Source of the DNA: Dysosmobacter acutus
GTDB lineage: Bacteria > Bacillota > Clostridia > Oscillospirales > Oscillospiraceae
DNA length: 64,000 nucleotides
NCBI RefSeq assembly: GCF_018919205.1
Contig: NZ_JAHLQN010000001.1
Coordinates: forward strand, 682,001 to 746,000
Direction: 5' to 3'
How positions within the stretch are numbered: position 1 is the stretch's first letter; every line of letters starts with the position of its first letter. Below are positions 25,745 through 56,968 of this stretch, piece by piece. A model generated the notes under the pieces. The model did not search any database. It was given only the letters and a program-made list of their open reading frames with translations, and was not told the origin of the DNA. A program made the translations under genes and the position numbers.

Positions 25745-26082
25745 GCGAAACATAAATTTTGCAGCGCACCGGAAGGGAACTTGCAAAAACAACGGAATAC
25801 AGCAAAAGCGACGATGGAGAGAAGTACCTTGGGAGATCGGTTCCAGTGAGCGGGAGAGAGTGGGAACCCCGTACGCAGAGCCTGAGGGAATAACACTCCG
25901 GAGCGGCGAACCGAACGCACTGCAAGTAGGGGAGACGGGCTGCGGCCGTTATACCGCACGGGTTTAATGGAACCTTGAAAGGGGCTGCCTCATGGGCAGC
26001 AAGTTAGGTGGCACCGCGGATCGCAGCATTCGTCCTAAGGAGAAGGAGGAATGCTGCAAATTTGATTCGGAGGTGCCTTTTT
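25745..26082 (+). promoter_or_regulatory. T-box leader, predicted asparagine-specific
   Basis: The T-box core AGGTGGCACCGCGG (26006-26019) is unmistakable, with the antiterminator closed by TTAGG (26004-26008) and CCTAA. The stem I region (about 25810-25900) ends in GGGAATAACACTCC; AAC at 25892-25894 is the likely specifier and codes for Asn. The bulge reads UGGC, whose C would pair with discriminator G73 as in tRNA-Asn. GGCACC (26010-26015) is complementary to GGTGCC (26072-26077), which covers the ribosome site and is followed by TTTTT before the ATG. Confidence 0.9.
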
Positions 26083-27660
26083 ATGTGTTCAATCATGGGA
26101 TTCAGCAAAAAGACCGTCGGCCGGGAGGAAATCCGGGAGTATTTCGACCGGACGAAATCCCGGGGACCGGACATGTCCCGTGTGGTGGAGACCAAATCCG
26201 GGTATCTGTGCTTCCACCGCCTGGCCATCATGGGCCTGGAGGAAACCGGCATGCAGCCCTTTGAGCTGGAGGGCGACATGGTGGTGTGCAACGGCGAGCT
26301 GTACAACTGGCGGGGGCAGAAAGAGAAACTGGAGGAGCACTACCAATTCTGGAGCGGGAGCGACTGCGAGCTGCTGCTGCCCATGTACCGGGAGTATGGC
26401 CTGTCCATGTTCTCCCGGCTGGACGCGGAGTTTGCGCTGATCCTCTACGACAGCATGACCGACACGCTGGTGGCCGCCCGGGACCCCATCGGCATCCGGC
26501 CCCTTTTCTACGGCTATGACAGCGGGGACGCCATTGTCTTTGCCAGCGAGGCAAAGAACCTTGTGGGCCTGTGCCGGGAGATTCGTCCCTTCCCGCCGGG
26601 ACACTACTACGCCTTTGGACGGTTTGTCCGCTATATGGACCTGACCACGGTGCGGGAGTACTGTGAGGATGATCTGGAAACCGTCTGCGCCAATATCCGG
26701 GAGAAGCTTGTGGCCGGCGTAAAGAAGCGGCTGGACGCCGACGCGCCCCTTGGGTTTTTGCTCAGCGGCGGGCTGGACTCCAGCCTGGTGTGCGCCATCT
26801 CCGCAAAGCTTTTGCATAAGCCCATCCGCACCTTTGCCATCGGCATGGATAAAGACGCCATTGATCTCAAGTACGCAAGAGAGGTGGCCGATTACATCGG
26901 CGCCGACCACACGGAGGTCTATATGACCCGGGACCAGGTCATCTCCTCTTTGGAAGAGGTGATCGCCATGCTGGGCACCTACGATATCACCACCATCCGG
27001 GCCAGCATGGGCATGTACCTCTGCTGCAAGGCCATCCACGAGCGGAGTGACATCCGGGTGCTGATGACCGGCGAGATATCCGATGAGCTGTTTGGGTATA
27101 AGTACACCGATTTTGCACCGTCGCCGGAGGCCTTCCAGCAGGAGGCCAAAAAGCGGATCGATGAGATTTACATGTATGATGTGCTCCGGGCGGACCGCTG
27201 CATCAGCGTCAACTCCCTGGAGGCCAGGGTACCCTTTGGCGACCTGGAGTTTGTGCGCTATGTCATGAGCGTGGACCCGGCTAAGAAGATGAACGTCTAC
27301 CACAAGGGGAAGTACCTGCTGCGCCGCGCCTTTGAGGGCGACCTGCTGCCCCGCGACATCCTCTACCGGGAGAAGGCAGCTTTCTCCGACGCCGTGGGCC
27401 ACTCCATGGTGGACGATCTGAAAGAGTACGCCGAGGCGGTCTACTCCGATGAAGACTACGAAAAGAAGCGGAAAAAGTACGGCTTCGCCATCCCCTTCAC
27501 CAAGGAGAGCCTGCTCTACCGGGAGATTTTTGAACGATACTACCCCGGTCAGGCGCGCATGGTCAAGGACTTCTGGATGCCCAACAGGTCCTGGAAGGGC
27601 TGCGATGTCAACGACCCCTCCGCCCGGGTGCTGGCCAACTACGGCGGCAGCGGCGAATAA
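26083..27660 (+). CDS. asnB: Asparagine synthetase B (glutamine-hydrolysing)
   Basis: A 525-residue enzyme that makes asparagine from aspartate, ATP and glutamine. Cys2 is the glutaminase nucleophile (MCSIMGF), and the ATP-pyrophosphatase loop is SGGLDSSL. The glutaminase domain spans about 1-200 and the synthetase domain 210-510. The length matches the family. GGAGGTG lies 6 bp before the ATG, inside the sequence that can pair with the T-box. The next gene, 39 bp on, supplies glutamine. Confidence 0.94.
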   Translation: MCSIMGFSKKTVGREEIREYFDRTKSRGPDMSRVVETKSGYLCFHRLAIMGLEETGMQPFELEGDMVVCNGELYNWRGQKEKLEEHYQFWSGSDCELLLPMYREYGLSMFSRLDAEFALILYDSMTDTLVAARDPIGIRPLFYGYDSGDAIVFASEAKNLVGLCREIRPFPPGHYYAFGRFVRYMDLTTVREYCEDDLETVCANIREKLVAGVKKRLDADAPLGFLLSGGLDSSLVCAISAKLLHKPIRTFAIGMDKDAIDLKYAREVADYIGADHTEVYMTRDQVISSLEEVIAMLGTYDITTIRASMGMYLCCKAIHERSDIRVLMTGEISDELFGYKYTDFAPSPEAFQQEAKKRIDEIYMYDVLRADRCISVNSLEARVPFGDLEFVRYVMSVDPAKKMNVYHKGKYLLRRAFEGDLLPRDILYREKAAFSDAVGHSMVDDLKEYAEAVYSDEDYEKKRKKYGFAIPFTKESLLYREIFERYYPGQARMVKDFWMPNRSWKGCDVNDPSARVLANYGGSGE

Positions 27661-34291: not shown

Positions 34292-35755
34292 ATGAAACGG
34301 CGTCTTTTGGCCCTGCTGCTCTGCGCCGCGCTGCTTTGTACCGGTACGGCGCTGGCCGCGGAGGACAGCATGGAGAACTTCACCCGGGTGAAGACCTATA
34401 CCCGCCAGTTCTCCGATCTTGCCCCCGCCTCGGCCCACTATAAAAGCGTGGCGGCCCTCTATGAGTACGGCCTGACGGTGGGCAAAGGGAACGGAACCTT
34501 CGGCGTGCAGGACTCCCTGAGCGTCGGGGAGGCCGTGGTCTTTGCCGGACGCATCCGGAGCCTCTACCGCACCGGAGACGCGGAAGCCGGGGCGAATGGG
34601 TACCGCTCCGCTGCGGGGACCCTTGAAGAGCCCTACCGGACCTACGTGCCCTATCTTTCATATCTCCAGGCGGAGGCGGTTCTGGGCTCGGAGCTGGAAG
34701 GCGTGTTGGACAAGGCCGCCACCCGGGCGCAGATGGCCCATGTGCTGGCCCATGTGCTGCCGGACTCCGCCCTGCCGTCCATCAACGACCAGGCGGTGAC
34801 GGAAGGGTATGCCACCGGCCGCTACATCACCGATGTGACGGAGTATACCCCTTATCAGCCCGATATCCTCAAGCTCTATAAGTGCGGAATCCTCCAGGGC
34901 AGCGGAAGCACCGGAACGTTCCGGCCGGCGTCTAACATCACCCGGGGTGAGGCCGCCTCCATGCTCAGCCGTATGGTGGACGAGTCGCTGCGGCTCCAAT
35001 TGGATTGGTCGGCGGCCCCGGACTACAGCGCCGTGGGCACCACCATGGCGGACCTGGTGCCCACGGCCCAGTTCGTGGCCAATCCAGCCTCCGCCGCCGA
35101 AATCCGGGGCAACGTCCGCTCCATGCTTGCAAGCGGGCAGCGCACCATGAGCCTCCAGTATCCCGGCAACTCCCTGACCGCCTCCTTTGTCAACAACCTG
35201 CTCAACTCCGCCCTGACCAATGTGAAGTCCTACTGCGAGCAGATGTACAACACGGTCAGCTGCACCTATGACCTGGCCAAAGGCACGGTCAAGCTGAACT
35301 TTTCCGCGGCCAGCTCTACGGCGTCCCAGCTGAGCTCCTACCGGAGCTTTTCCATGGACCGGGCCATCGAGGTTCACGACCAGCTGTGGGAGTCCGGAGA
35401 GATCACGGCGGACATGACGGAGTATGACAAGGCCAGGGTATACTATGCTTGGGTCTGCGAAAACTGCTATTATGACCAGGGAGCCTCGGACCTCTCCCTC
35501 AGCCACCTGGCCTACAGCGTGTTTGCTTATGGCAAGGCGGTCTGCGACGGCTATACAGGGGCCTACAACCTGCTTTTGAAGCTGGAGGGCATCCAGTGCT
35601 ACGGCCTTTCCAACGCCGACCACATCTGGACGGTGGCGAATCTGGACGGCACGGACTATCACATTGACACCACCTGGGGCGACAGCGGAGCAAAAACGGA
35701 CTATGCGTATTTCGGCATGACCTCCGCCCAGTCCTGGGCCGCCCACCCGTGGTAA
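34292..35755 (+). CDS. SLH-anchored transglutaminase-like protein
   Basis: A 487-residue secreted protein. The signal peptide (1-22) is followed by SLH-like repeats (about 35-230: YKSVAALYEYGLTVGKGNGTF, PDILKLYKCGILQGSGSTGTF as fragments), a linker domain, and a transglutaminase/protease-like domain (about 350-487) with Cys418 in AVCDGYTGAY, His444 in ADHIW and Asp459 in YHIDTTWGD, a complete catalytic triad. It lies 26 bp after the LCP gene. It may cross-link or trim surface proteins; the substrate is unknown. Confidence 0.86.
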   Translation: MKRRLLALLLCAALLCTGTALAAEDSMENFTRVKTYTRQFSDLAPASAHYKSVAALYEYGLTVGKGNGTFGVQDSLSVGEAVVFAGRIRSLYRTGDAEAGANGYRSAAGTLEEPYRTYVPYLSYLQAEAVLGSELEGVLDKAATRAQMAHVLAHVLPDSALPSINDQAVTEGYATGRYITDVTEYTPYQPDILKLYKCGILQGSGSTGTFRPASNITRGEAASMLSRMVDESLRLQLDWSAAPDYSAVGTTMADLVPTAQFVANPASAAEIRGNVRSMLASGQRTMSLQYPGNSLTASFVNNLLNSALTNVKSYCEQMYNTVSCTYDLAKGTVKLNFSAASSTASQLSSYRSFSMDRAIEVHDQLWESGEITADMTEYDKARVYYAWVCENCYYDQGASDLSLSHLAYSVFAYGKAVCDGYTGAYNLLLKLEGIQCYGLSNADHIWTVANLDGTDYHIDTTWGDSGAKTDYAYFGMTSAQSWAAHPW

Positions 35756-44421: not shown

Positions 44422-46782
44422 TTAAGAGGAGAGTATGCCGTATTTCACCTTGACCCGCTCCAGCTTCTCCACCACCGGATCGGCAAAAAAGTAGAGAAAT
44501 AGCGCGGTTGCCCCCGCGTGGAGGAGATTGAAGGGCAGCCCTGTCAGGTAATAGGAGCACAGGGCTCCCCAGCTGGGCTGGGCCAGCCACATCAGCGCCG
44601 AGCCGGTGTCCAGCAGAAGCCCGCAGACCGCCAGGGCGGCAAAGGCGCCGTACACGCACAGCGCCAGACGGTGTTTTGGCCTTCCCCGGAACAGGAGGCC
44701 CGCCAGAAAGCCCGCCAGGCCAAAGGAAAACATCTGCCACGGCGTCCAGGGGCCTTGGCCGAAAAACAGGTTGGAGGCAAACATGGTCAGCGCGCCCACC
44801 AAAAATCCGCTTTCCGGGCCGAAGCAAGCCCCTGCCACCACGCACAGTGCCGCCACCGGCTTCACCTGCGGCAGCATGTACAGCGCCGCCCGGCCGACCA
44901 CGCCAAGGGCGCACAGCACGGAGAGCAGGAGAATCTCCCGGGCCCGGGGCCTGCGGCGTTCCATGGCAAAGAAAAAGGGAAACATGGACTCCAGGATTAC
45001 AGCGAGGCTGATGAAATAGTACTTCCTGTCCTCCAGCAAAAAGACGCCGGCCGCCACAGTGGCGGGGATCAGAAGGAGAAACGTGAGATAGGCGGCCGGA
45101 TGGAGGGGCCGCTTTTTCGCGGCTTTGGGCGGTGGACCCGCCGGCGCTTCCACAGCCTGGGGCGGAAGGGGCGGCGGAAGGGGGGGATCCTCCTTCCCGC
45201 CGCAGACCGCGATCAGCTCCTCCGGCAGCAGCGCTCCGGGGACAATGGACCGGGCCAGCCGCCCGGCCGCCGTGGTATAGGTGGCGTTGGCGGAGAACAG
45301 GCGGCGGGGCGTACCCTCGCTGACCGCGGACCCGTCAAAGAGAAAGACACACCGGTGGGCGCAGCGGACGCAGAAGTCGATGTCGTGGGAGGCAAGCACC
45401 ACTGTGACTCCCTGGCTGCCCAGCCGCTCCAGGATGGCGCGGAGAGACCCGCGGAAAGATTCATCCAGACCATGGGTGGGTTCGTCCAACAGCAGCAGCT
45501 CCGGCCGACGCAGCAGCACCTTGGCCAGGGCGGCGCGCTGCTGCTCCCCGCCAGAGAGGTCGTAGGGGTGGCGGCAAAGCAGATGCCGAAGCCCGCAGAG
45601 TTCCACCACCTCATCAACGCGCGCGTCCGGCTCCGACAGCTCCGCCGCCGCAGCCCGAAGGTCTGCCTCCACGGTTTTGGCGGTAAAGAGGAGCTGGGGG
45701 TCCTGGGGCAGGAGGCCCGCCGAGGCCGGGGCGCAGCGGCGCACCGCGCCCCGCTGGGGCTGGAGCTGGCCGCAGAGCATCCGCAGCAACGTGCTTTTTC
45801 CGCCGCCGTTGCCGCCCACCACGGCAAGGCACTCACCCCGGCCCACGGTGAGGGACAGCCCCCGCAGCACGTCGGCGCTCTCCCGCTCGTAGCGAAACCA
45901 TGCCTCCTCCACCCGGAGGAGAGGCGTCGTTTCCGGCCGGGGGCGCTCAGGCGGAAGCGGAAGGCCGTGGGGCGTCTTCAGAAGAAAGGAGCGGCCCTCG
46001 GCAATGGTGACGGGGCAGGGCAGAGGGGAGTCCAGTCCGGCCCAAAGGCGCATGGGCGCGGGCAGGGCCGCGCATAGGGGATGGCGGAGGGCGCGCAGCG
46101 CCGCTCCCGCCTCCCGTGGCGTCCCGTCGGCGATGACCCGGCCGCCCTCCAGGGCCAGAAGGCGGCCGGACAGAGGCACCGATTCCTCCAAGTGGTGTTC
46201 CGAGAGCAAAATGGCCGTGCCAAGCTCCCGGTTCAGCCGGCTCAGGGCCTCAAGGAAGTGGGCGGAGGCCACAGGGTCCAGCTGGGCGGTGGGCTCATCT
46301 AAGAGCAGCAGCTCCGGCTGCATCACCACGGCGGAGGCCAGGGAAAGCAATTGTTTCTGACCGCCGGAGAGGCTGGCCACCTCCCGGTGGAACCAGTGCT
46401 GGATGCCGAAAAAGGAGGCGGTTTCCGCCACCCGGGAGCGGATTTCCCCGGTGGGAAGGCCCAGGTTCTCCAGTCCGAAGGCCAGCTCATGCCACACCTT
46501 GTCGGTGACGGTTCCATTTTCCGGCGACTGGCCCACAAAGCCGATCAGAGCGCTGTCCTCACGGAGGGAGAGACTGGCCTGCCCCGCCAGAAGCCGCTTT
46601 CCCGTGAGGACACCCGCGGGGGTCAGAGAGGGCTTCAGACAGCGCAGCAGCGTGGTCTTGCCGCTGCCGGAGAGGCCGCAGAGGGTGATGAATTCACCCG
46701 GCGCCACAGTGAGCGACACGTCCCGCAGGGCCGGGGCGGCGGAGCCGGGATAGGTGAAATTCAGATGTTCAAGCGTGACCAG
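44422..46782 (-). CDS. ECF transporter fusion: two ATPase domains plus S component (predicted corrinoid transporter)
   Basis: A 786-residue fusion. ATPase 1 (about 1-270) has Walker A GLSGSGKT (36-43), SLSGGQKQ and LLLLDEPTAQLD. ATPase 2 (about 300-530) has GGNGGGKST, DLSGGEQQR and LLLLDEPTHGLD. A Pro-rich linker leads to an S-component domain with about six helices (about 585-786). No ATG/GTG/TTG fits the domain start; CTG at 46782 stands 7 bp after AAAGGAGG, and the frame beyond it lies inside ecfT. Last gene of the B12-riboswitch operon, overlapping ecfT by 22 bp. Confidence 0.88.
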   Translation of the reverse strand: MVTLEHLNFTYPGSAAPALRDVSLTVAPGEFITLCGLSGSGKTTLLRCLKPSLTPAGVLTGKRLLAGQASLSLREDSALIGFVGQSPENGTVTDKVWHELAFGLENLGLPTGEIRSRVAETASFFGIQHWFHREVASLSGGQKQLLSLASAVVMQPELLLLDEPTAQLDPVASAHFLEALSRLNRELGTAILLSEHHLEESVPLSGRLLALEGGRVIADGTPREAGAALRALRHPLCAALPAPMRLWAGLDSPLPCPVTIAEGRSFLLKTPHGLPLPPERPRPETTPLLRVEEAWFRYERESADVLRGLSLTVGRGECLAVVGGNGGGKSTLLRMLCGQLQPQRGAVRRCAPASAGLLPQDPQLLFTAKTVEADLRAAAAELSEPDARVDEVVELCGLRHLLCRHPYDLSGGEQQRAALAKVLLRRPELLLLDEPTHGLDESFRGSLRAILERLGSQGVTVVLASHDIDFCVRCAHRCVFLFDGSAVSEGTPRRLFSANATYTTAAGRLARSIVPGALLPEELIAVCGGKEDPPLPPPLPPQAVEAPAGPPPKAAKKRPLHPAAYLTFLLLIPATVAAGVFLLEDRKYYFISLAVILESMFPFFFAMERRRPRAREILLLSVLCALGVVGRAALYMLPQVKPVAALCVVAGACFGPESGFLVGALTMFASNLFFGQGPWTPWQMFSFGLAGFLAGLLFRGRPKHRLALCVYGAFAALAVCGLLLDTGSALMWLAQPSWGALCSYYLTGLPFNLLHAGATALFLYFFADPVVEKLERVKVKYGILSS

Positions 46783-47636
46783 ATCCGTTCCTCCTTTCGC
46801 TCCAGACAGACCGGGACGAGGCAAATCGACAGGTAGGCGCAGACGGAAAGGGCGGTGAGCCAGTCCAGTGTTCCGCCCAGGGCGGGATAGTAGGTCCACT
46901 TCAAGCCGCCCCATGCGGCAGTCGCCGCGGTGAGCGCAAGCAGGGCGGAGAGGAGAAGCAGAAGGCTCTTGTCCCGCGTTTCCAGGCGGTAGAGGGAGAA
47001 GGCGGTGCGCTCAGGAAGGCCGTAGCCCCTGGCGCGCATGGAATCCGCCGTCTCCACCGCGTTTTCCAGCGCCCAGGTCAAGAGGATGGAGAGGGTTCCC
47101 GCCCCGGCGCGGACGCGATCCAAGAGACCCCGGGGCGGACCAAATAATCCCCGCTGGGCTTGGGCGATGCGCTGGGCCTGGCGGCGGAACCGGGGAATGA
47201 AGCGCAGCGTCATGGAGAGCAGCAGCGAGAGAGACGGAGCCGCCCGGCCAAAGAGGTAGAGCACCTTGTCCGAGGTCATCACATGGCTGAGGCAGGCGCA
47301 CCAGAGCAAAACCGACGAGAGCATCCACGCGGAGGCCAGGCCGAAGGCCAGCGACTCCAGCGTCAGTGGGTTTCCGGAGGGGAGATACGTCAGAATGGTA
47401 ACGCCCCGGTGGTTGAAGGCCGGGTTGAGAATCAGCGCCATCAGTCCAACCGGCGCGATCCACGCAAGCCGCCGGAGGGTCTCCCGCCTGCCCAACAGCG
47501 TAACGGCGCAGCAGAGGGCGCCAAAAAAGCCGACCGCCAGCAGCGCCGGATGCATCACCACGGCGCCAAAGCCCAGCACGGACCCAAAGTAGAGCAGGCT
47601 GACGGCCGGATGCACGGAGTCAAAGGCCCGGCTCAT
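46761..47636 (-). CDS. ecfT: ECF transporter transmembrane component EcfT
   Basis: A 291-residue membrane protein with about six helices. The EcfT coupling motif is SMRARGYG (the A-R-G signature), preceded by the LRFIPRFRRQAQRIAQAQ segment. It joins the two ATPase domains to the S component. The ATG at 47636 overlaps the stop of the DUF4430 lipoprotein gene (ATGA). Being dedicated to this operon, it makes the system a group I, self-contained ECF transporter. Confidence 0.92.
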   Translation of the reverse strand: MSRAFDSVHPAVSLLYFGSVLGFGAVVMHPALLAVGFFGALCCAVTLLGRRETLRRLAWIAPVGLMALILNPAFNHRGVTILTYLPSGNPLTLESLAFGLASAWMLSSVLLWCACLSHVMTSDKVLYLFGRAAPSLSLLLSMTLRFIPRFRRQAQRIAQAQRGLFGPPRGLLDRVRAGAGTLSILLTWALENAVETADSMRARGYGLPERTAFSLYRLETRDKSLLLLLSALLALTAATAAWGGLKWTYYPALGGTLDWLTALSVCAYLSICLVPVCLERKEERIWSRLNI

Positions 47637-48382
47637 GACCACGCTCCGTTGTCTCCGCCCACATCCGCGCCCAAGTCGCAGGTGTACTGCCAGACCACGC
47701 TGTCCCCGTCCTGAAGCGCATAGCGGGAGGAACCGTAGTTGGGAAACTCCCCGTTGACGGAGTAGACCCAGCCGGAGAGAGGGCCGCCGTCGAATTCATA
47801 GAGGTTACCGATGCCCTCGATGTAGGCAGAGTGGTAGAGGGGCGTGTTGACGTATTCAAGGTGGGTCTTGGAGGAGCGCATCTCGCGGAGCAGCACGTCA
47901 AAGACGCTCTCCCCCTCGGTAAAGGACACGGTCTGCTCGGCCCACAGCACGCCGTCGGAGGGCACCAGGTCCCGCTTGGCCTCCTCCATGTCCTCAAGGT
48001 GATCCAACAGTGTGTCACAGCAGACCACAAGGGTGCAGGTGGGGGAAGCCTCTTCCTCTTGGGGCGTGTCGGCGCCCCCGGAAGAGGCGCCGGGAGAAAT
48101 CGCACCGGGGGAGGGTGCTCCGGAGGCGGGCCTATTAGATGAAACCGACGGCGCGGAGGCTGATGGCGCATCTTCCTTTCCGGATGCGTCGGAGGGCGCG
48201 GAAGGCGCGATCTCCATTTCAGAGGAAGCCTCTTCAGAGAAGGTGGGGGCGGACGCGGACTCTGAGGATGCGGGCGGGACCGCGGAATGAGACAAGAGGC
48301 CGTCATGGGGCTCCGCGCCGCATCCTGTGAGAAGGCTCAGCGCCAGCAGCAGGGCCAGGGAGGCGGAAATCAATCGGTTCAA
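47633..48382 (-). CDS. DUF4430 lipoprotein (predicted membrane-proximal corrinoid binder)
   Basis: A 249-residue protein. The lipobox LLTGC puts the lipidated Cys at 21; a long Ser/Pro/Ala-rich stalk (25-115) leads to a DUF4430 domain (about 117-245) with ESVFDVLLREM, GGPLSGWVYSVNG and DGDSVVWQYT. DUF4430 matches the beta domain of intrinsic factor and transcobalamin. It would hand ligand to the ECF transporter. The start is TTG at 48382, 8 bp after GGAAGG. Confidence 0.85.
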   Translation of the reverse strand: MNRLISASLALLLALSLLTGCGAEPHDGLLSHSAVPPASSESASAPTFSEEASSEMEIAPSAPSDASGKEDAPSASAPSVSSNRPASGAPSPGAISPGASSGGADTPQEEEASPTCTLVVCCDTLLDHLEDMEEAKRDLVPSDGVLWAEQTVSFTEGESVFDVLLREMRSSKTHLEYVNTPLYHSAYIEGIGNLYEFDGGPLSGWVYSVNGEFPNYGSSRYALQDGDSVVWQYTCDLGADVGGDNGAWS

Positions 48383-48400
48383 ATCATTTTCCTTCCTTTT

Positions 48401-50005
48401 CTATTGGACAAACGGACTTTTCAGCAATGCATAGACGCTTTCGGCGATCTCCAGCCGGGTGATGGGATCTCCGGGCCGGATTTCACGCTCCACGCCGCCC
48501 AAAAGACCGTTTTGCAGACACAGCGCCAAAGAGGGCGCGGCCCACTGGCCGCAGCGCCCCGAGTCCTGATACCGGCCCAGAATGGAGCGCTGACAGGAGG
48601 AGCTGAAGCCCACGGCACGCATGGAGGCGAACTGGGCGGCGCGGGCGATCATCACCGCGGCCTCCTGCCGGGTGATGGTGCCGTTGGGCGTGAAGGCGGT
48701 TAAGGAAGTGCCCTTCACGATGCCGCAGTTATAGAGCGGCGCCACATAGGGGGCGCACCAGGCGGGGAGTTCGGTGAACGGGGTCTTCTCCCCGTTGCCG
48801 TCAAGCCCCAGGGCGCGGCAGAGAACGGCGCAGAACTCCGCGCGGGTCATGGAGTCGCCGGGGGCGAAGGAGCCGTCGCCGCGGCCGGTGAACACGCCCC
48901 GCCGGGTCAGCACCTCCACGGCTTCCCGCTGGGTCTTGGTGAGGCTGTCCAAGTCCGGATAGCTCACCAGCAGGTTGGCCTCGGCAGGCAGATGGACCGC
49001 CGGATTGAACTGAAGCGGCCCGCCGTCGCCGCCCACGCCCATGTGGTAAAAGGAGGAGAGACCCGCGTTCTGGCGCATGAGGCCGGAGAGGGCGCACAGG
49101 GCCTGTTCTGTGGCCATCTGGTCGGCGCCACCCCCGGCGGTGTGGGCAAAGGACCCGTCGCCGCGGGCAAAGCGCAGCAGAGCGTCTACCGGAGTTTTGC
49201 CGCTGCGGGTGAGGAGGGACTGCTCCTTTCCCAACGCCGAGAGGGCCATGACCACCTGAGCGCAGGACTCGGCATTGGCGGGGGTTCCGAAGGAGCCGTC
49301 CTCCTGCTGAAGCCCGGCAAGACACTTCAGCCCTGCTTCAATGGCGCTGTCCACTCGGGCCTCCGATCCCTGACTGGGGGAGAGGGCCGTCAGCGCCATG
49401 GCGGTCAGGTCCGCATCGGCCGGCTCCCGTCCGGCAAGCGACCAACCCCCGCTGGGAAGCTGGGCAGCAAGCACCTCCTCTTGATACCAGTCCAGGGCCG
49501 GGACCACGGTTCCATCAGCATCCGCGTCGTAGAGCGCGCACTGGTCCAGGGCCTGGGCGGCGATCAGGGCCCAGACGGCCCCGTTGATGCCCTGACGGGT
49601 GACGGCGGAGCGGTCCGAAATCGGTGTGAGCAGGTCGCAGCCGCCCACAGAGCGCGCATCGGCGCCTATGGCGGCAAGGGCCAGGACCACCCGGCTGTAT
49701 TCGGTGTATTTGGTGGTGCTGAGCACCCCGCCGTTTTCCCGCAAAGCGGCGGCTGCGCGCTGGAGATAGCCGTCATACCAGGACTGGGACGGAGCGGTAT
49801 CCCATCCGCCCCGGCTCAGGGCCAGTACCGCCCACTCGCCGCCGATGGAGCCCACCGTGGGCTCAGGAACTGCTTTCAGGACATAGGAGGCGGTTTTTTC
49901 CGCCGCCGCCTTCACATCAGACGGCTCAGCGGCCGGAACGACCGCTGTGGAGCTGAAGGCCACAATCAGCGCCAGCAGCAGCGCGTGGTGAGAACGGAGT
50001 TTCAT
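48401..50005 (-). CDS. SLH-anchored alpha/alpha-barrel surface protein
   Basis: A 534-residue secreted protein. The signal peptide (1-26) is followed by an alpha/alpha barrel of the prenyltransferase/squalene-cyclase type (about 30-330) with repeated QLPSGGWS, QQEDGSFGTP and ARGDGSFAHT turns, and then SLH repeats (about 360-530: LTRRGVFTGRGDGSF). The same barrel forms the alpha domain of intrinsic factor and transcobalamin. It lies 18 bp before the lipoprotein gene. It probably binds or presents corrinoid on the cell surface; catalysis is unlikely but not excluded. Confidence 0.85.
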   Translation of the reverse strand: MKLRSHHALLLALIVAFSSTAVVPAAEPSDVKAAAEKTASYVLKAVPEPTVGSIGGEWAVLALSRGGWDTAPSQSWYDGYLQRAAAALRENGGVLSTTKYTEYSRVVLALAAIGADARSVGGCDLLTPISDRSAVTRQGINGAVWALIAAQALDQCALYDADADGTVVPALDWYQEEVLAAQLPSGGWSLAGREPADADLTAMALTALSPSQGSEARVDSAIEAGLKCLAGLQQEDGSFGTPANAESCAQVVMALSALGKEQSLLTRSGKTPVDALLRFARGDGSFAHTAGGGADQMATEQALCALSGLMRQNAGLSSFYHMGVGGDGGPLQFNPAVHLPAEANLLVSYPDLDSLTKTQREAVEVLTRRGVFTGRGDGSFAPGDSMTRAEFCAVLCRALGLDGNGEKTPFTELPAWCAPYVAPLYNCGIVKGTSLTAFTPNGTITRQEAAVMIARAAQFASMRAVGFSSSCQRSILGRYQDSGRCGQWAAPSLALCLQNGLLGGVEREIRPGDPITRLEIAESVYALLKSPFVQ

Positions 50006-50018
50006 AAATTTCCTCTTT

Positions 50019-52763
50019 TCACTTTACTTGTGCCGCCAGATCGTCAAAGGCCGCAGCGGCCGCGGCCCGGGTGACCCGGTCCGGAAGAGTGATTTGCCCA
50101 GCCCAGGCCTCCGCCTCGGAAAGAGTCTGGAACCGCCCCTTCCAGACGGCCCAGCGGCAGAGGAAATCCCTCAGCTCCCGGGTGCTGACGGGCCGCCCCC
50201 CGTGGAAACAGCCGTCGCCGTAGCCCAGGGCGATGCGCTGATCGGCGGCCCAGTTCAGGGCGCCGGAATACCAGGCGGCGCTGTCGGAAAAGGTGGATGG
50301 GGCGGTGGAGTCGGGACTGCCCGCCATGCGCCAGAGCACGGCCACGGCCTGGGACCGGGTCAGCTCTTCGTCGGGGGAGAAGGTCTTTTCCCCCGTGCCG
50401 TTCATATAGCCGGCCTCCGCCATGGCCTCAATGGCCTTGGCGTATGCGGAATCCGGGTCCACGTCCTCAAACCGGACGCTGCCGGATACTGAGGTACTTC
50501 CGCCCCCGCTCCACTGCTCAGAGCCGGTTTCCCTGGTGTAGTCGTCGGTGTAGTAAAAGACCACCCGGTCCCCGCCGCGGAGGGTGTAGTTCCTGCACCC
50601 TGTGGCGGGAGACGTGCCGTTGACCAGATACTGCCAGCCGGAGAGAGCCCCGTTGTCCAATTCGGACAGGGTGGTGCCGTCTGTATTGGTGACGGAGGAG
50701 ATATAATTGAAGGAGGGCTCCACATAGGTGAGGCCCGCGTCCGAGAGGGCCTGGTCAAAGGCGGCGAAGGCGGAGCTGCCGGAGGGAAGGGACACCTCCC
50801 GTTCCGAGAGCCAGATCCGGCCCGCGCCCTTGTCGTTTTTGTAGATGTGGGTGGTTCCGCTGCCGTGGAGGCTGTCGCCCACCAGGGTGAAGGACACAGT
50901 GATGTTCCCGCTGCCGCCGGACTGACTGATCAGGGATACGCTGACCCGGAGAGTCTTGTGCTGGTAAGCATCCTGGGCGGAGACGGTCAGCGTGCCGGTC
51001 TTTGGGGCATAGCCGCCGGCACTGACGGAATAGCTGTAGGTGCCTTCGACAAGAGAGTAGCGGCCGGGGGAAAGGGGCTCCACCGGAGCGCCGCCAAGGG
51101 TAAGGGAGACCTCGGCGCCCGCGGGAGTGGTGGAAAAGATCACCGGGCAGCCGGGGACGTTGGACGCGTAGCCGGGCGCTGATGCAAAGGCGGTAAAATC
51201 ATAGACGTTGCAGGGGGCCTCTCCCTTCAAAAACCGGGCGGCGGCGGTCAGGGCCCGGAAGCACTGCTCGGTGGAAAAGTCGTCTGCGGCCTTGTCAGGG
51301 GTGAGGCTGAAGCCATCTTTTTTGGCGCAGGAGAGAAGAGCGGTATAAGGGCTGCCCCCTTCGGTGGTATAGCGGGCGTCGGCGGCGGGGTCCACCCCGG
51401 CGGCGCACAGGCCGATCAGCACCATGGCATCGGTGCAGCTGTTGCCGTAGCTGCCGAACCGATCCTGGAGCGAGTCCTCCGCCAGAGCGTTCAGAATACC
51501 GTCGCGCAGCGCGGCGCAGCGGCCGCGGATACCGTGGGGGTCGGATTCACTGCCGGCGCAGAGGGACACGGCCGCCAGCACGGCCCCGGCGGTATCGGGG
51601 CTGGGATAGGTGACGCCTCCCCAGCTGTAGGAAAAGAGGAAGTCGTCTCCGGCGGCCGCCTCCATCACATCCAATACACCGCTCATCTTTTCCGCGGAAG
51701 CCTTGCCGGACTGCTCCAGGGCCAGCAGCACATAGGGGGCGCTGTAGCAACTGTTGGTGGTGGAGTCCATCAGGGCGTCGGTGACGCTGAGGACCGTTCC
51801 ATCGGCGCAGAGCAGGGCGTCCGGGTCCACTCCAAGGGCCCGCAGGTCCAAAAATGATTTGGCAAGCGCGGCGTCGTCCGGAACCTGGGCGGAGACGGCG
51901 GTGACGGCGTCGTCAATGACGGCCTGGGCGTTTGCGGAAAAAGGGGACGTTCCGGCATAGAGGCCGTAGGAGGCCAGGTCCACCGCCGTCCAGGAGGCGG
52001 AGCGTCCATCATAGCCCCGGGCCAGAGAGGAGAGAAGCTCCGCCTGGGGGCGGATGGAGACGTTGACGTTGTAGTAGACCGTGTCGGGATACACTCCCAC
52101 GCTCACCGCGATCACTCCGCCGTCGGAGAGCGGGATGCGGCCGGGATGGGACAGATCGTAGTCCGCGTAGTTGACCTGGACGCTCTGGTTCGCTCCGCCG
52201 GGCACGCCGGTCAGCACGGCTCCCGTCACACCTTCAGCCGCGCTCAGCGTCAAAAGGGTTCCTCCGGCGGCGGGAGCGGAGGTCAATTCTCCGGCGGAAA
52301 AGGACAGACCCTCGGCGCTTTCACCGCCGGAGCCGGACACGGCGCCGGGAATGGTGAAGTCGGTGGAGTAGTAGAGCAGGATATCCTCTCCGCCGGACAG
52401 GGTGACCAAGGAGATGCCAGTGGCGGGGACCACGCAATCCACGGCGAACATCCATCCGTAATAGGTGGCGTGGTCCGCAGAGGAATACTCCGCCAGGCCG
52501 TTGATGGAGCTGATGTACACGGAGCCATGGGAATCGGAGAATTCATAGGGGACGGCGTTTTCATCCAATGCGGCCTTCACCGCGTCCCAGGCGGACATGC
52601 CCTCGGAATAGGCGGCCTCAAAGGGCCCAAGGGACAGTTCGCTTCCCTCCGCCTCACTGACCACGCGCACTGTAACGCCGCCGCCAACCGCGGCCAGCGC
52701 GGGCGGGACAAGGGAGCAGACCATGGCCATGGCCAGCAGCAGTGACAGAATTTTTCGCTTCAT
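50019..52763 (-). CDS. SLH-anchored DUF4430 / alpha-barrel / PEGA / DUF4430 surface protein (intrinsic-factor-like)
   Basis: A 914-residue secreted protein. Order: signal peptide (1-24), DUF4430 (about 30-135), linker, alpha/alpha barrel (about 240-570), PEGA-like beta domain (about 585-660), second DUF4430 (about 675-795, with NGALSGWQYLVNG), and SLH repeats (about 805-914). The barrel plus DUF4430 pair is the architecture of mammalian B12 carriers. It is the first gene after the cobalamin riboswitch. The ATG at 52763 follows AAAGGAGATCTGT; the open frame to 52985 is riboswitch sequence. Confidence 0.88.
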   Translation of the reverse strand: MKRKILSLLLAMAMVCSLVPPALAAVGGGVTVRVVSEAEGSELSLGPFEAAYSEGMSAWDAVKAALDENAVPYEFSDSHGSVYISSINGLAEYSSADHATYYGWMFAVDCVVPATGISLVTLSGGEDILLYYSTDFTIPGAVSGSGGESAEGLSFSAGELTSAPAAGGTLLTLSAAEGVTGAVLTGVPGGANQSVQVNYADYDLSHPGRIPLSDGGVIAVSVGVYPDTVYYNVNVSIRPQAELLSSLARGYDGRSASWTAVDLASYGLYAGTSPFSANAQAVIDDAVTAVSAQVPDDAALAKSFLDLRALGVDPDALLCADGTVLSVTDALMDSTTNSCYSAPYVLLALEQSGKASAEKMSGVLDVMEAAAGDDFLFSYSWGGVTYPSPDTAGAVLAAVSLCAGSESDPHGIRGRCAALRDGILNALAEDSLQDRFGSYGNSCTDAMVLIGLCAAGVDPAADARYTTEGGSPYTALLSCAKKDGFSLTPDKAADDFSTEQCFRALTAAARFLKGEAPCNVYDFTAFASAPGYASNVPGCPVIFSTTPAGAEVSLTLGGAPVEPLSPGRYSLVEGTYSYSVSAGGYAPKTGTLTVSAQDAYQHKTLRVSVSLISQSGGSGNITVSFTLVGDSLHGSGTTHIYKNDKGAGRIWLSEREVSLPSGSSAFAAFDQALSDAGLTYVEPSFNYISSVTNTDGTTLSELDNGALSGWQYLVNGTSPATGCRNYTLRGGDRVVFYYTDDYTRETGSEQWSGGGSTSVSGSVRFEDVDPDSAYAKAIEAMAEAGYMNGTGEKTFSPDEELTRSQAVAVLWRMAGSPDSTAPSTFSDSAAWYSGALNWAADQRIALGYGDGCFHGGRPVSTRELRDFLCRWAVWKGRFQTLSEAEAWAGQITLPDRVTRAAAAAAFDDLAAQVK

Positions 52764-52785
52764 ACAGATCTCCTTTCTTTTTGGG

Positions 52786-52828
52786 AAAGGACAGAAAAGC
52801 CGCGGCAACCAAGAGCGGTTGCCACGGC
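52786..52828 (-). terminator. Riboswitch expression platform terminator
   Basis: On the minus strand GCCGTGGCAACC pairs with GGTTGCCGCGGC (52799-52828, one wobble pair) and is followed by TTTTCTGTCCTTT, between the riboswitch and the first gene. B12 binding would be expected to favour it. Confidence 0.85.
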
Positions 52829-52880
52829 CGTTTTCCCATGCCAACAAAGCCTGCGGGCCACTGGCCGGCAAGCTGTTCTT

Positions 52881-53080
52881 CTTCCTTGTAGGTCTTCTGA
52901 CTCGCGCGTTTGAAAGAGGTCTTTCGCAGCCGTGCCCTGCCTTCCCAGGCCCTGAGCCCAGTGACCGGCTTTCGCCGACGGACACGGCCTCGGCGCATAC
53001 AGCGGCGGTACCGTCCGGGGTTCACACCCGGTTCCCTTGTCCACCCCCGGCGGTTCCTCGCCGCCGGGGTCACAAAGAAG
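52881..53080 (-). promoter_or_regulatory. Cobalamin (B12) riboswitch
   Basis: The minus-strand RNA shows the class signatures: a closing stem CTTCTTTGT (53072-53080) with ACAAGGAAG (52881-52889), the AAGGGAACCGGGTGTGAA segment, CCGCCGCTGTAT, the GGTCACTGGG B12 box, and GAGTCAGAAGACCTAC. Architecture and order are complete. It controls the surface-protein and ECF operon downstream. Confidence 0.95.
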
Positions 53081-53095
53081 CATTGAATTGCTCCA

Positions 53096-53124
53096 AGAAT
53101 ACCATATTTTATGAATACTGTAAA
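53096..53124 (-). promoter_or_regulatory. Promoter of the B12 uptake operon
   Basis: -35 TTTACA (53119-53124) and -10 TATTCT (53096-53101), 17-bp spacer. The start site would fall just before the riboswitch. Confidence 0.75.
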
Positions 53125-53347: not shown

Positions 53348-56300
53348 ATGATAGAGGCGATGCTGACCATGGAAAAAACAGAGTGGAACAAAAGTCAATT
53401 GAGCGCGGAACAGACCCTGCGATCCTTTTGCCGCAGCTGGTTTGAGCGGCGCAGCGCGGAGGAGACCGTCGCCTTCTTTTCTCCGGACGTGTGCTTTGTG
53501 GGCACCGGGGAAAAGGAGACCGCCCGGGGGATTGACCAGATGGCCGAATATGTCCGGCAGGATATCCGGGAGATTCCGGAGCCCTTTTCCTGTGAACTGC
53601 AGGTGATTCAGGACGCACACCTGGCCGACGGCCTGCGGGCGCTCTCCATGGAGATGTCTTTGAAAAATACGATTTACACCTGGCACCTGCGGGGATTTTT
53701 CACCCTGCGCTGGGAGGGCGGGGAACTGTGGAAGATCTGCGAACTCCACTTTGCGGAGCCGGGGGGCAGCCAGCGCCCGGGTGAGCACTACCCCCAGACG
53801 CTGGTGGTGGAGCGCATGGCCCAGCAGCGCCAGCAGCTACTGAGCGACTCCATCTCCGGGGGCATGATGGGCGGCTACATAGGGGAGGGCTTCCCCTTTT
53901 ACTTTATCAACCGGCGGATGCTGGACTATCTGGGATATGAGACGGAGGAGGAGTTTGTCGCCGATATCGGCGGCCTGATCTCCAACTGCATGCATCCGGA
54001 GGACCGGAAGATGGTGGATGCCTCGGTGGCGGAGCAGCTGCGGCGGGGAGAGGAATATGTGGTCGAATACCGGATGCGGAAAAAGGACGGCTCCCACATC
54101 TGGGTCCACGACCAGGGGCGGCGGGTCCGGGCCGAGGACGGACGCGATGCCATCGTATCCGTGTGCATCGACATCACGGCACAGCGGAGGGCCCAGGAAG
54201 AGGTGCTGCGGCTTTACAACAACATCCCCGGCGCGGTGTTCCGCTGCCGCTTTGACGAGGACTTCTCCATCATTGACGCCAACGACGGCCTTTTTGAATT
54301 CGTGGGCTACAGCCGGGAGGAGTTTGCGGCCATGGGAAACCGCATGTCCGCTGTGATCCATCCGGAGGATCTGGCGGGGATGGCGGATAAGCTCAATACC
54401 CAGCTGCGCTCCGGAGCCACCATCCACAACGAAAACAGGCTGGTGTGCAAAGACGGCACGGTGAGGTGGATATCCATCAATGCCCAGCTGTTTCTGGAGG
54501 ATGGAGAACCGTATTTTTACTGTGTCTTTGTGGACATCACCGAGGAAAAGGCCCTCCGGAAACGGATGTGGGAGCTCTATGAGAACGAGTGGTCCTATTT
54601 TGCCCGGATGGCCTCGGCGGAGGGCTCTATCCAGGGAACCATCAACGTCACCCGCAACCGGACGGAAAATTACCTGTCCACGGCGGATGTGGCTGTGGCC
54701 CGGATCGGGGACTCCTACGACCAGACCATCGCCAACCTGTCGGATTCCGCCGTGGATCCCGAGCGGAGGGCGGAACTCTATCGGGCGCTGAAGCGGGAGA
54801 AGGTGCTCTCGGACTATGCCTCCGGAAGGACGGAGTACCACTTTGACTTCCTCCGCTGGAAAAACAACGGCACCATGTTCTGGGGCAGCACGAAGATGCG
54901 AACCTATCTCAATCCGGATACCCGGGATGTGCTGCTCTTTTTCTATACCGAGGATGTGACGGAGCGGAAGATTCAGGAGCAGCTTTTGAATCAGCTGACG
55001 GAATTGGACTACGATGTGATCACGGACATCGACATTCCCCGCGACTCCCACTGGGTGGTCTCCGCAGACAGAGGACGCGCCGACACCATTCCCCGCCAGG
55101 GCCGTTTCCAGGAGGAAATCCGAAAAATAGCCGACCGGTTTATGGGCGGGGAGGCCCGGAGGGAATACCTGAGCAAGCTGGATTACGGGTACATGGAAAA
55201 AACGCTGGAGCACCAAAACGCCTATTCGTTTCTTGTGGAGATGAAGGACGAACAGGGCGAGCCTCGGGTCAAGCGGGTCAAGGTATTTTACATCAACAAG
55301 GAGCTGGGCCGGGTCTGCATGGCCCGCTCCGACGTGACGGATGTGGTCCGGCAGGAGCAGCGGCAGAAGGAGGAGCTGGCGGCCGCCCTGGTGGCCGCGG
55401 AACAGGCCAACGCCGCCAAGACGGATTTCCTCTCCCGCATGAGCCACGAGATTCGCACCCCCATGAACGCCATCATCGGCATGAGCACCATCGCGGCCCA
55501 AGCCATCGGAGACGACGAGCAGGTGGCCGACTGCATCTCCAAAATCGGCATCTCCTCCCGCTTTCTCCTGTCCCTTATCAACGACATCCTTGATATGAGC
55601 CGGATTGAGAGCGGGAAGATGCTGCTGAAAAATGAAAAGATTCCCATGGAGGAGTTTCTCAACGGAGTCAACTCCATCTGCTACGGCCAGGCGGCGGCCA
55701 AGGGAGTGGATTATGAGTGCATCGTGGACCCGGTGTTAGACGACTACTACATGGGAGATGCCATGAAGCTTCAGCAGGTGCTGGTCAACATCTTAGGCAA
55801 CGCGGTGAAATTTACGGCCGAGGGCGGGCGGGTTACCTTCTCAGCCGCCCAGCGGAGGAAGACAAAAAACAGCGCCGAGCTGCGCTTTGTGATCAACGAC
55901 ACAGGAACAGGCATGAGCGAGGAATTCCTGCCGCATATTTTTGAGCCCTTCTCCCAGGAGTCCACGGGCACCACCGCGCTGTACGGCGGCACCGGACTGG
56001 GTCTTGCCATCTCCAAGAGCATTGTGGACATGATGGACGGAAAGATCGCGGTGCGCTCTATTAAAGGCGTGGGCACGGAGTTTACGGTGGATGTGAAGCT
56101 TGGCATTACGGAGGAGGAGCTGCGCCGCCACCAGAAAAAACAGACTTATAATTTCTCCCATCTCAAAACCCTGGTGGTGGACGACGATGTGAGCGTCTGT
56201 GAAAGCGCCGTGGTCATCCTCCATCAAATGGGGGTCAAGGCTGAATGGGTGGACAGCGGGCGCAAAGCGGTGGAGCAGGTGAGCGCCCTTTGGGAGCAGG

Positions 56301-56968
56301 GGAAGCACTATGACATGATCCTCATTGACTGGAAGATGCCGGAGATGGATGGGATCGAAACCGCGCGGCGCATCCGCGCCGTGGTGGGCCCGGAGGTCAC
56401 CATCATCATTATGACCGCCTACGATTGGATTCCCATTGAACACGAGGCAAAGATGGCCGGGGTCAATTTGCTGATGAGCAAGCCCATGTTCAAATCCTCC
56501 ATCGTCTCCGCGTTCTCAAAGGCACTGGGCGAAAAGGAAGAGCGGGAGCGTCAGGAGGAAACGGACTTTGACTTTACAGGAAAGCGGATTCTGCTGGCCG
56601 AGGACAATGCCCTCAATACGGAGGTGGCGGTGCTGCTGCTGAAAAATAAAGGCTTTGCCGTGGATACGGCTGAGAACGGGCTGCGGGCGCTGGAGCTGTT
56701 CAGCAAATCGCCGGAGGGGTATTATGACGCGGTGCTGATGGACATCCGGATGCCCCTGATGGACGGGCTGACCGCCGCGTCCAACCTCCGCCACCTGAGC
56801 AATGCCGACGCCAGGACCGTCCCAATCCTTGCAATGACCGCCAACGCCTTTGACGACGACATCGAAAAGAGCAAGGCCGCAGGGATGAACGCCCACCTTG
56901 CCAAGCCCATCGATCCGAAGCGGCTCTATCAGACGCTTTACGATTTTATTTTTGGAGAGGAGGAGTAA
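53348..56968 (+). CDS. Hybrid sensor histidine kinase with two receiver domains
   Basis: A 1206-residue cytoplasmic protein without membrane helices. An N-terminal SnoaL/NTF2-like domain (about 18-145) is followed by PAS-type domains (about 165-560), HisKA with SRMSHEIRTPMNAI, HATPase (NAVKF, DTGTGM, GTGLGLAI), receiver 1 (VVDDDV, DWKMPEMDG) and receiver 2 (LAEDNALN, MDIRMPLMDG). The separate Hpt gene 3 bp downstream completes the relay. Several starts are possible (53348, 53360, 53369). The signal is unknown; the NTF2-like domain may bind a small molecule. Confidence 0.93.
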   Translation: MIEAMLTMEKTEWNKSQLSAEQTLRSFCRSWFERRSAEETVAFFSPDVCFVGTGEKETARGIDQMAEYVRQDIREIPEPFSCELQVIQDAHLADGLRALSMEMSLKNTIYTWHLRGFFTLRWEGGELWKICELHFAEPGGSQRPGEHYPQTLVVERMAQQRQQLLSDSISGGMMGGYIGEGFPFYFINRRMLDYLGYETEEEFVADIGGLISNCMHPEDRKMVDASVAEQLRRGEEYVVEYRMRKKDGSHIWVHDQGRRVRAEDGRDAIVSVCIDITAQRRAQEEVLRLYNNIPGAVFRCRFDEDFSIIDANDGLFEFVGYSREEFAAMGNRMSAVIHPEDLAGMADKLNTQLRSGATIHNENRLVCKDGTVRWISINAQLFLEDGEPYFYCVFVDITEEKALRKRMWELYENEWSYFARMASAEGSIQGTINVTRNRTENYLSTADVAVARIGDSYDQTIANLSDSAVDPERRAELYRALKREKVLSDYASGRTEYHFDFLRWKNNGTMFWGSTKMRTYLNPDTRDVLLFFYTEDVTERKIQEQLLNQLTELDYDVITDIDIPRDSHWVVSADRGRADTIPRQGRFQEEIRKIADRFMGGEARREYLSKLDYGYMEKTLEHQNAYSFLVEMKDEQGEPRVKRVKVFYINKELGRVCMARSDVTDVVRQEQRQKEELAAALVAAEQANAAKTDFLSRMSHEIRTPMNAIIGMSTIAAQAIGDDEQVADCISKIGISSRFLLSLINDILDMSRIESGKMLLKNEKIPMEEFLNGVNSICYGQAAAKGVDYECIVDPVLDDYYMGDAMKLQQVLVNILGNAVKFTAEGGRVTFSAAQRRKTKNSAELRFVINDTGTGMSEEFLPHIFEPFSQESTGTTALYGGTGLGLAISKSIVDMMDGKIAVRSIKGVGTEFTVDVKLGITEEELRRHQKKQTYNFSHLKTLVVDDDVSVCESAVVILHQMGVKAEWVDSGRKAVEQVSALWEQGKHYDMILIDWKMPEMDGIETARRIRAVVGPEVTIIIMTAYDWIPIEHEAKMAGVNLLMSKPMFKSSIVSAFSKALGEKEERERQEETDFDFTGKRILLAEDNALNTEVAVLLLKNKGFAVDTAENGLRALELFSKSPEGYYDAVLMDIRMPLMDGLTAASNLRHLSNADARTVPILAMTANAFDDDIEKSKAAGMNAHLAKPIDPKRLYQTLYDFIFGEEE

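Follow-up and report, generated by a model that had tools for sequence, protein, structure and literature searches.

A cobalamin riboswitch operon of Dysosmobacter acutus predicted to capture corrinoids with transcobalamin-like surface proteins

The DNA considered here is a window of 64,000 nucleotides from the clostridial bacterium Dysosmobacter acutus (contig NZ_JAHLQN010000001.1, positions 682,001 to 746,000 of the forward strand); all coordinates below count from the first letter of this window. On its minus strand, at 53124-44422, lies a cobalamin riboswitch followed by five genes, called A to E, which encode surface proteins and the components of an energy-coupling factor (ECF) transporter and are predicted to take up vitamin B12 (cobalamin) or related corrinoids.

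Leader, gene layout and transporter

The leader matches the Rfam cobalamin riboswitch model RF00174 at 53092-52870 (83.3 bits, E 4.9e-19, where the gathering score is 31.5), and the match covers model positions 1-189 of 189; the riboswitch is complete, as a preliminary description of this DNA had stated. At E <= 0.001 it is the single match to this model found in the 3.16-Mb genome, where 150 of the 228 first-look candidates were scored. With a score over the curated threshold and the whole model covered, ligand binding and control of transcription are predicted for it. The promoter and terminator reported alongside it are present as a promoter-like -35/-10 site (TTTACA-17-TATTCT, 53124-53096), a consensus match at 9 of 12 positions that is by itself no evidence of function, and as a terminator-like hairpin of 14 pairs, 9 of them G-C, with a T-rich tail, in the gap between the riboswitch and gene A (52829-52798). 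The 96-nucleotide stretch 3' of the riboswitch has a folding z of -4.1. The scan of the window found no clear excess of such elements over shuffled sequence (9 terminator-like against a mean of 7.8, 2 promoter-like against 0.9), so that what supports the promoter-like site and the 14-pair hairpin is their length and position. Another terminator-like hairpin, with 11 pairs and a T-rich tail, lies 3' of gene E at 44389-44365.

Gene A (52763-50019) encodes a secreted S-layer homology (SLH) protein of 914 amino acids in the order DUF4430, barrel, PEGA-like domain, DUF4430 and SLH, and gene B (50005-48401) a secreted barrel protein of 534 amino acids with three SLH stretches according to Pfam; both appear from their translations to begin with signal peptides. 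Gene C (48382-47633) has a TTG start and encodes a DUF4430 lipoprotein with a Pro/Ser-rich linker, gene D (47642-46761) encodes the transmembrane component EcfT, of the CbiQ family (PF02361, E 2.3e-8), and gene E (about 46782-44422) encodes a fusion of two ECF ATPases and an S component, recognized by both Pfam and NCBIfam, whose candidate in-frame starts are a CTG at 46782 or an ATG at 46914 inside D. Adjacent genes overlap or lie at most 18 bases apart, in agreement with the layout first described, and the five are taken to form one transcript. All five reading frames are open, and a broken gene set was rejected on this ground. The domains earlier assigned to these proteins (SLH in A and B, two DUF4430 in A and one in C, EcfT, and the ATPase-ATPase-S fusion) are likewise found by Pfam, and the three DUF4430 domains of the operon are the only ones found in the genome.

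In protein E, Pfam identifies two ATP-binding cassette ATPase stretches (PF00005) and an ECF S domain (E 1.2e-10) belonging to the families ECF_trnsprt and ECF-ribofla_trS. The S domain (44955-44437) has one sequence match in the PDB at E <= 1, namely 6fnp_A (182 residues, E 9.8e-13), a chain taken from its length to be CbrT. Entry 6FNP is the ECF-CbrT transporter of Lactobacillus delbrueckii, for which ATP-dependent uptake of cobalamin and cobinamide is described, together with binding of cobinamide by CbrT at a dissociation constant of 36 nM (PMC5997447). D and E likely constitute a CbrT-type ECF importer, and the proposal of such transport finds its sequence match here; cobalamin is the predicted cargo. 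A cobalt transporter of the CbiMNQO kind was considered and rejected because of the families of the S part and its sole PDB match.

Surface proteins and the fold of B12 carriers

Protein A contains two Pfam DUF4430 stretches (E 7.2e-22) in addition to SLH, the first at 52598-52365 (PF14478, 43 bits) and the second at 50780-50547 (44.9 bits), and its PEGA-like domain falls under the Pfam cut-off. The alpha/alpha barrel between them (residues 238-514, 52052-51222) has no Pfam match and is visible in the predicted model (predicted local distance difference test, pLDDT, 77.9; predicted template modelling score, pTM, 0.50), where single-barrel rows of the fold comparison align about 240-260 residues. 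When the model of A was compared by Foldseek, rows 1-14 were mammalian transcobalamin, haptocorrin and intrinsic factor (E 1.4e-8 to 5.4e-6), the next was the isolated transcobalamin beta domain, and 3u7z stood in row 17. The likeness to intrinsic factor and transcobalamin expected of A is therefore borne out by the predicted fold, which extends it to haptocorrin. The single chain of A is predicted to hold a barrel and, after it, a beta-grasp domain, in the order of intrinsic factor and transcobalamin, and by this likeness of fold cobalamin would be held between the two.

Protein B is recognized by Pfam for its SLH domains (E 3.5e-24), with a barrel of the prenyltransferase/terpene-cyclase kind under the cut-off, and its model is a barrel (pLDDT 90.1). 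The alpha/alpha barrels attributed to A and B are accordingly present, that of A in the model and that of B below the Pfam cut-off and in the fold comparison. Transcobalamin rows are among the Foldseek matches of B (4zrp, E 3.9e-5); the VIA list for B, with its 50 rows, contains none, which excludes nothing. Against the PDB, the profile of B finds 7xq4_A (E 2.7e-12) along with other cyclase rows, which relates its barrel to squalene-hopene cyclase. For the role of B as part of a carrier, the barrel fold stands, whereas a resemblance specific to transcobalamin does not, since terpene cyclases are equally close.

Protein C carries a DUF4430 domain (PF14478, E 2.1e-17) and, as read from its translation, a lipobox-like LLTGC. 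In the alignment A3 of 13 C proteins, a lipobox-like motif can be read in 6 and a hydrophobic stretch at the N-terminus in 7, so C is likely held at the membrane either way. This alignment was used to scan genome contigs, and the best 80 of at least 583 relatives were kept. Among these 80, Y187 and Y195 are invariant and F197 is present in 74; the three residues appear from the alignment to sit in an insert before strand 3 of DUF4430. Three cysteines of the C family are nearly invariant as well, C116 in 59 of 80 (with 21 gaps), C122 in 73 and C235 in 79. They have no counterpart at like places in the DUF4430 domains of A, by reading of the translation, and may form a disulfide or provide a cobalt ligand.

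Recurrence of the gene set and a possible split carrier

In a sample of 150 genomes of the family, DUF4430 is found in 103 and RF00174 in 114, at E <= 0.001. When 150 listed rows of each were compared, at least 21 DUF4430 rows in 15 genomes had a same-strand riboswitch no more than 12 kb upstream, and 2 close pairs among the matches listed were otherwise arranged. For the genomes G000-G039 the riboswitch list is complete (75 rows, 7 of them under the Rfam cut-off, with at most 48 candidates per genome scored). Here, 20 of the 40 DUF4430 rows have a riboswitch at most 8 kb upstream on the same strand, against 0.155 expected, a count in which only listed rows enter, weaker ones are left aside and rows of one cassette are not independent. 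Co-location by chance was rejected on this comparison. The 40 rows fall in 16 genomes and the 20 linked ones in 10; dropping the riboswitch matches below the cut-off leaves 19 linked, as the row G027:C14 depends on such a match. Linked rows are missing from 6 of the 16 genomes, 3 of which have no riboswitch match. Twenty loci first fetched from the family, for linked rows or strong DUF4430 matches, contain EcfT in 13 cases and an S part in 11. One genome (G031) has eleven DUF4430 matches, including two full cassettes (L070 and L071) without a riboswitch over the cut-off in the stretch. B is retained with 86% identity in a relative named Oscillibacter hominis.

The loci of the best 80 relatives of C extend this picture to Clostridia such as Papillibacter, Flavonifractor plautii, Lutispora and Pelotomaculum, and to 14 records titled Paenibacillus. 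They were picked by likeness to C and are not fully independent of the family sample, with which at least one (L128, compare G072:C19) may overlap. On the strand of C, anywhere in the locus, EcfT was found in 74, a match to one ATPase query in 74 and to the other in 70, a B-type barrel in 72, SLH in 62 and the S component in 64, many of these loci being cut off by the end of their contig. The S component is joined to the ATPases in 43 loci and encoded separately in 21. Fifteen riboswitches of DUF4430 loci served to build a covariance model, mostly a sequence model with 15 base pairs, and this gave 53 riboswitch matches in the 80 loci, all on the gene strand. A riboswitch stands upstream of C in 49 of the 80 loci, and in 40 of the 52 that have at least 8.3 kb of upstream sequence. 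Rfam was consulted for 25 of the 80: RF00174 exceeded its cut-off in 15 of 17 loci submitted before the covariance result was known (the exceptions are L084 and L109) and in 8 of 8 chosen afterwards from the covariance positives. A survey of genomes downstream of cobalamin riboswitches, as had been proposed, thus finds the gene set again both in the family and beyond it. Individual loci deviate in arrangement, such as L129:4561-5936, where the S part precedes EcfT and the ATPases. Additionally, c-di-GMP-I riboswitches occur at L061:452-539 and L100:15002-16165, in stretches that also hold B12-riboswitch DUF4430 loci.

The frames of B and C are close companions. In 70 of the 80 loci a barrel frame ends at most 400 bases from the C frame, directly before it; the remaining 10 comprise 8 without a barrel match, some of them cut by a contig end, L120 with its barrel elsewhere, and L115, where the two are fused. 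In L115, from a metagenome-assembled genome of the Gracilibacteraceae, one open frame encodes a barrel (67-361) and a DUF4430 domain (420-539; E 6.4e-17), and a lipobox-like LSAC near the start suggests a lipoprotein. RF00174 lies in front of it with 52.7 bits, and EcfT and ATPase matches lie behind, of which Pfam confirmed the ATPase and gave the EcfT frame no family. Some frame with both barrel and DUF4430 is present in 23 of the 80 loci, and by reading, fusions of DUF4430, a B-like barrel and SLH exist in P0011 and P0015.

Human transcobalamin offers a precedent, as its alpha and beta domains, produced separately, are described as assembling only with cobalamin, and the beta domain alone as binding cobalamin and cobinamide (PMC5599065). 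From the assembly of these two domains we infer that B and C work as alpha and beta halves. It is a tentative proposal, given somewhat less than an even chance, that many Firmicutes possess a split transcobalamin, with B as the wall-bound alpha barrel and C as the membrane-bound beta domain, that B12 would clamp the halves together before being handed over to a CbrT-type ECF importer, and that the one-chain carriers of animals are the joined form.

Corrinoid uptake, rival explanations and known systems

Taken as a whole, the operon very probably serves to catch B12 or related corrinoids at the cell surface by means of transcobalamin-like proteins, with import likely proceeding through the CbrT-type ECF transporter. 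At low B12 the leader would be read through. Protein A, fixed to the wall by its SLH domains, would capture the corrinoid, and the barrel of B in the wall and the DUF4430 domain of the membrane lipoprotein C would enclose the ligand as the two halves of transcobalamin, alpha and beta, do. B and C would then pass it to the S domain, and EcfT with the fused ATPases would power import. When B12 is plentiful, the riboswitch would likely halt transcription at the hairpin. This sequence of capture, relay and import had been proposed before; the fold of A, the CbrT match of the S domain and the recurrence of the gene set support it, and the search of the host for enzymes that use B12, none of which was found among the kinds tested, goes against it.

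Several observations weigh against this assignment. By fold, the 14 carrier rows of A have low TM-scores (TMt 0.28-0.42), and the pTM of its model makes the placement of domains unreliable. By sequence, PDB searches with A, B and C did not reach the mammalian carriers, the profile of A matched them weakly (best 5no0, E 0.033, not significant) and the profile of C gave no mammalian carrier match in the PDB, so that the carrier link rests on the predicted fold; the barrel on its own scores equally or higher with terpene cyclases and other barrels. EcfT is missing from the fetched stretch in seven of the first 20 family loci, and among the 52 long loci 12 lack an upstream riboswitch match. Searches of the host genome (G000; 97.5% complete, 2 contigs) found neither PF02310, NrdJ (TIGR02504), QueG (TIGR00276) nor a PduO-type adenosyltransferase (PF01923), and no BtuR, EutB or EutC, enzymes of other kinds not being searched. 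Absence of CbiD is not enriched among cassette genomes either, as CbiD occurs in 2 of 10 against 10 of 30 in the 40 family genomes (Fisher p 0.69).

In the host itself, family searches gave no match for CbiD or CobS, which fits a scavenger. The genome in this way pairs a B12 riboswitch and a predicted uptake operon with no B12-dependent enzyme or adenosyltransferase found among the kinds searched. As a control, the family searches (CbiD, PF02310, CobS, NrdJ, PduO-type and QueG) were positive in 6 to 12 of 14 named genomes. The search for BtuR, EutB and EutC, which was run without this control, gave matches in 7 of 13 genomes, BtuR-like ones in G013, G032, G037, G039 and G087 and EutB with EutC in G022 and G031; none of the three was found in G000, G015, G066, G082, G102 and G145.

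The alternative that survives best, although unlikely, is that the operon imports another ligand, such as a cobalt complex or an incomplete corrinoid like cobinamide, and that the riboswitch merely reports the B12 state of the cell. The affinity of CbrT for cobinamide, its transport by ECF-CbrT and the missing B12-using enzymes are in its favour, but cobinamide would require the late steps of B12 synthesis, for which CobS was not found, and no S component other than that of ECF-CbrT is matched in the PDB at E <= 1. There is a small chance that the operon, as a relic or a newcomer, has no metabolic use in this genome, the system being functional elsewhere. The missing consumers agree with this, as does the second sampled genome of the genus (G082), where neither DUF4430 nor a riboswitch match was found; the five open frames and the retention of B in Oscillibacter hominis speak against it. 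That B is a terpene-cyclase-type or other barrel enzyme and no part of a carrier is improbable, because it looks exported and wall-anchored, belongs to a type of frame that stands directly before C in most loci, has its barrel joined in L115 with the C-type DUF4430 domain downstream of a B12 riboswitch, and has transcobalamin among its Foldseek matches.

Elsewhere in the window, a scan of 20 neighbouring proteins gave no B12-related family among the matches. The divergent neighbour of the operon (53348-56968) encodes a hybrid histidine kinase of 1206 amino acids with PAS and receiver domains. A further SLH protein, with a transglutaminase-like domain, is encoded at 34292-35755, and a T-box leader (25802-26040, 95 bits) precedes and slightly overlaps an asparagine synthase frame at 26008-27660.

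Bacteria are in competition for B12, and identifying the systems that transport it is described as an open problem for numerous human gut genomes (PMC6593275). If corrinoid capture by this operon is correct, Gram-positive bacteria gain a gene set that can be named and tested, DUF4430, a name for unknown function in Pfam, is linked to corrinoid capture, and the idea, proposed in 2007, that intrinsic factor and transcobalamin have a bacterial origin becomes open to direct binding and structure tests. The general idea was already in print in that year: Burroughs, Balaji, Iyer and Aravind predicted that the transcobalamin-like SLBB proteins of bacterial CbiO/CbiQ operons scavenge B12 (PMC1796856). 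No experimental study of these bacterial proteins, and no paper joining S-layer homology with the cobalamin riboswitch, was found in the open-licence literature, where PMC4350170, on B12 carriers, is among the papers that mention DUF4430.

The operons of Burroughs et al. are the closest known systems, with exported, barrel-fused SLBB proteins beside genes for a CbiO-like ATPase and a CbiQ-like protein (PMC1796856). The present operon has this layout, an exported SLBB-type protein next to such genes, and DUF4430 appears in our reading to be their transcobalamin-like SLBB clade. Their hosts usually lack key enzymes of B12 synthesis (PMC1796856), to which the missing CbiD and CobS may be compared. 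The words riboswitch and S-layer do not occur in the main text of that article, and its available passages do not treat an S component, a lone barrel anchored by SLH or a split carrier. As far as the literature searched shows, the riboswitch link, the CbrT-type S component, the layering by SLH and lipid anchors and the likely split carrier are new.

With ECF-CbrT the operon shares EcfT, two ATPases and an S component related to 6fnp_A. In L. delbrueckii, CbrT is described as one of eight S components predicted to use one shared module (PMC5997447), whereas here both ATPases and S form a single polypeptide and the surface proteins belong to the same gene set. BtuG, a lipoprotein on the surface of gut Bacteroides, captures B12 for import and works with the transporter BtuB (PMC6143338); the likeness is one of role. 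Intrinsic factor, transcobalamin and haptocorrin, all three matched by A through its predicted fold, have the same succession of barrel and beta-grasp domain, to which A adds an extra DUF4430 in front, a PEGA-like domain between the barrel and the second DUF4430, and its SLH anchors.

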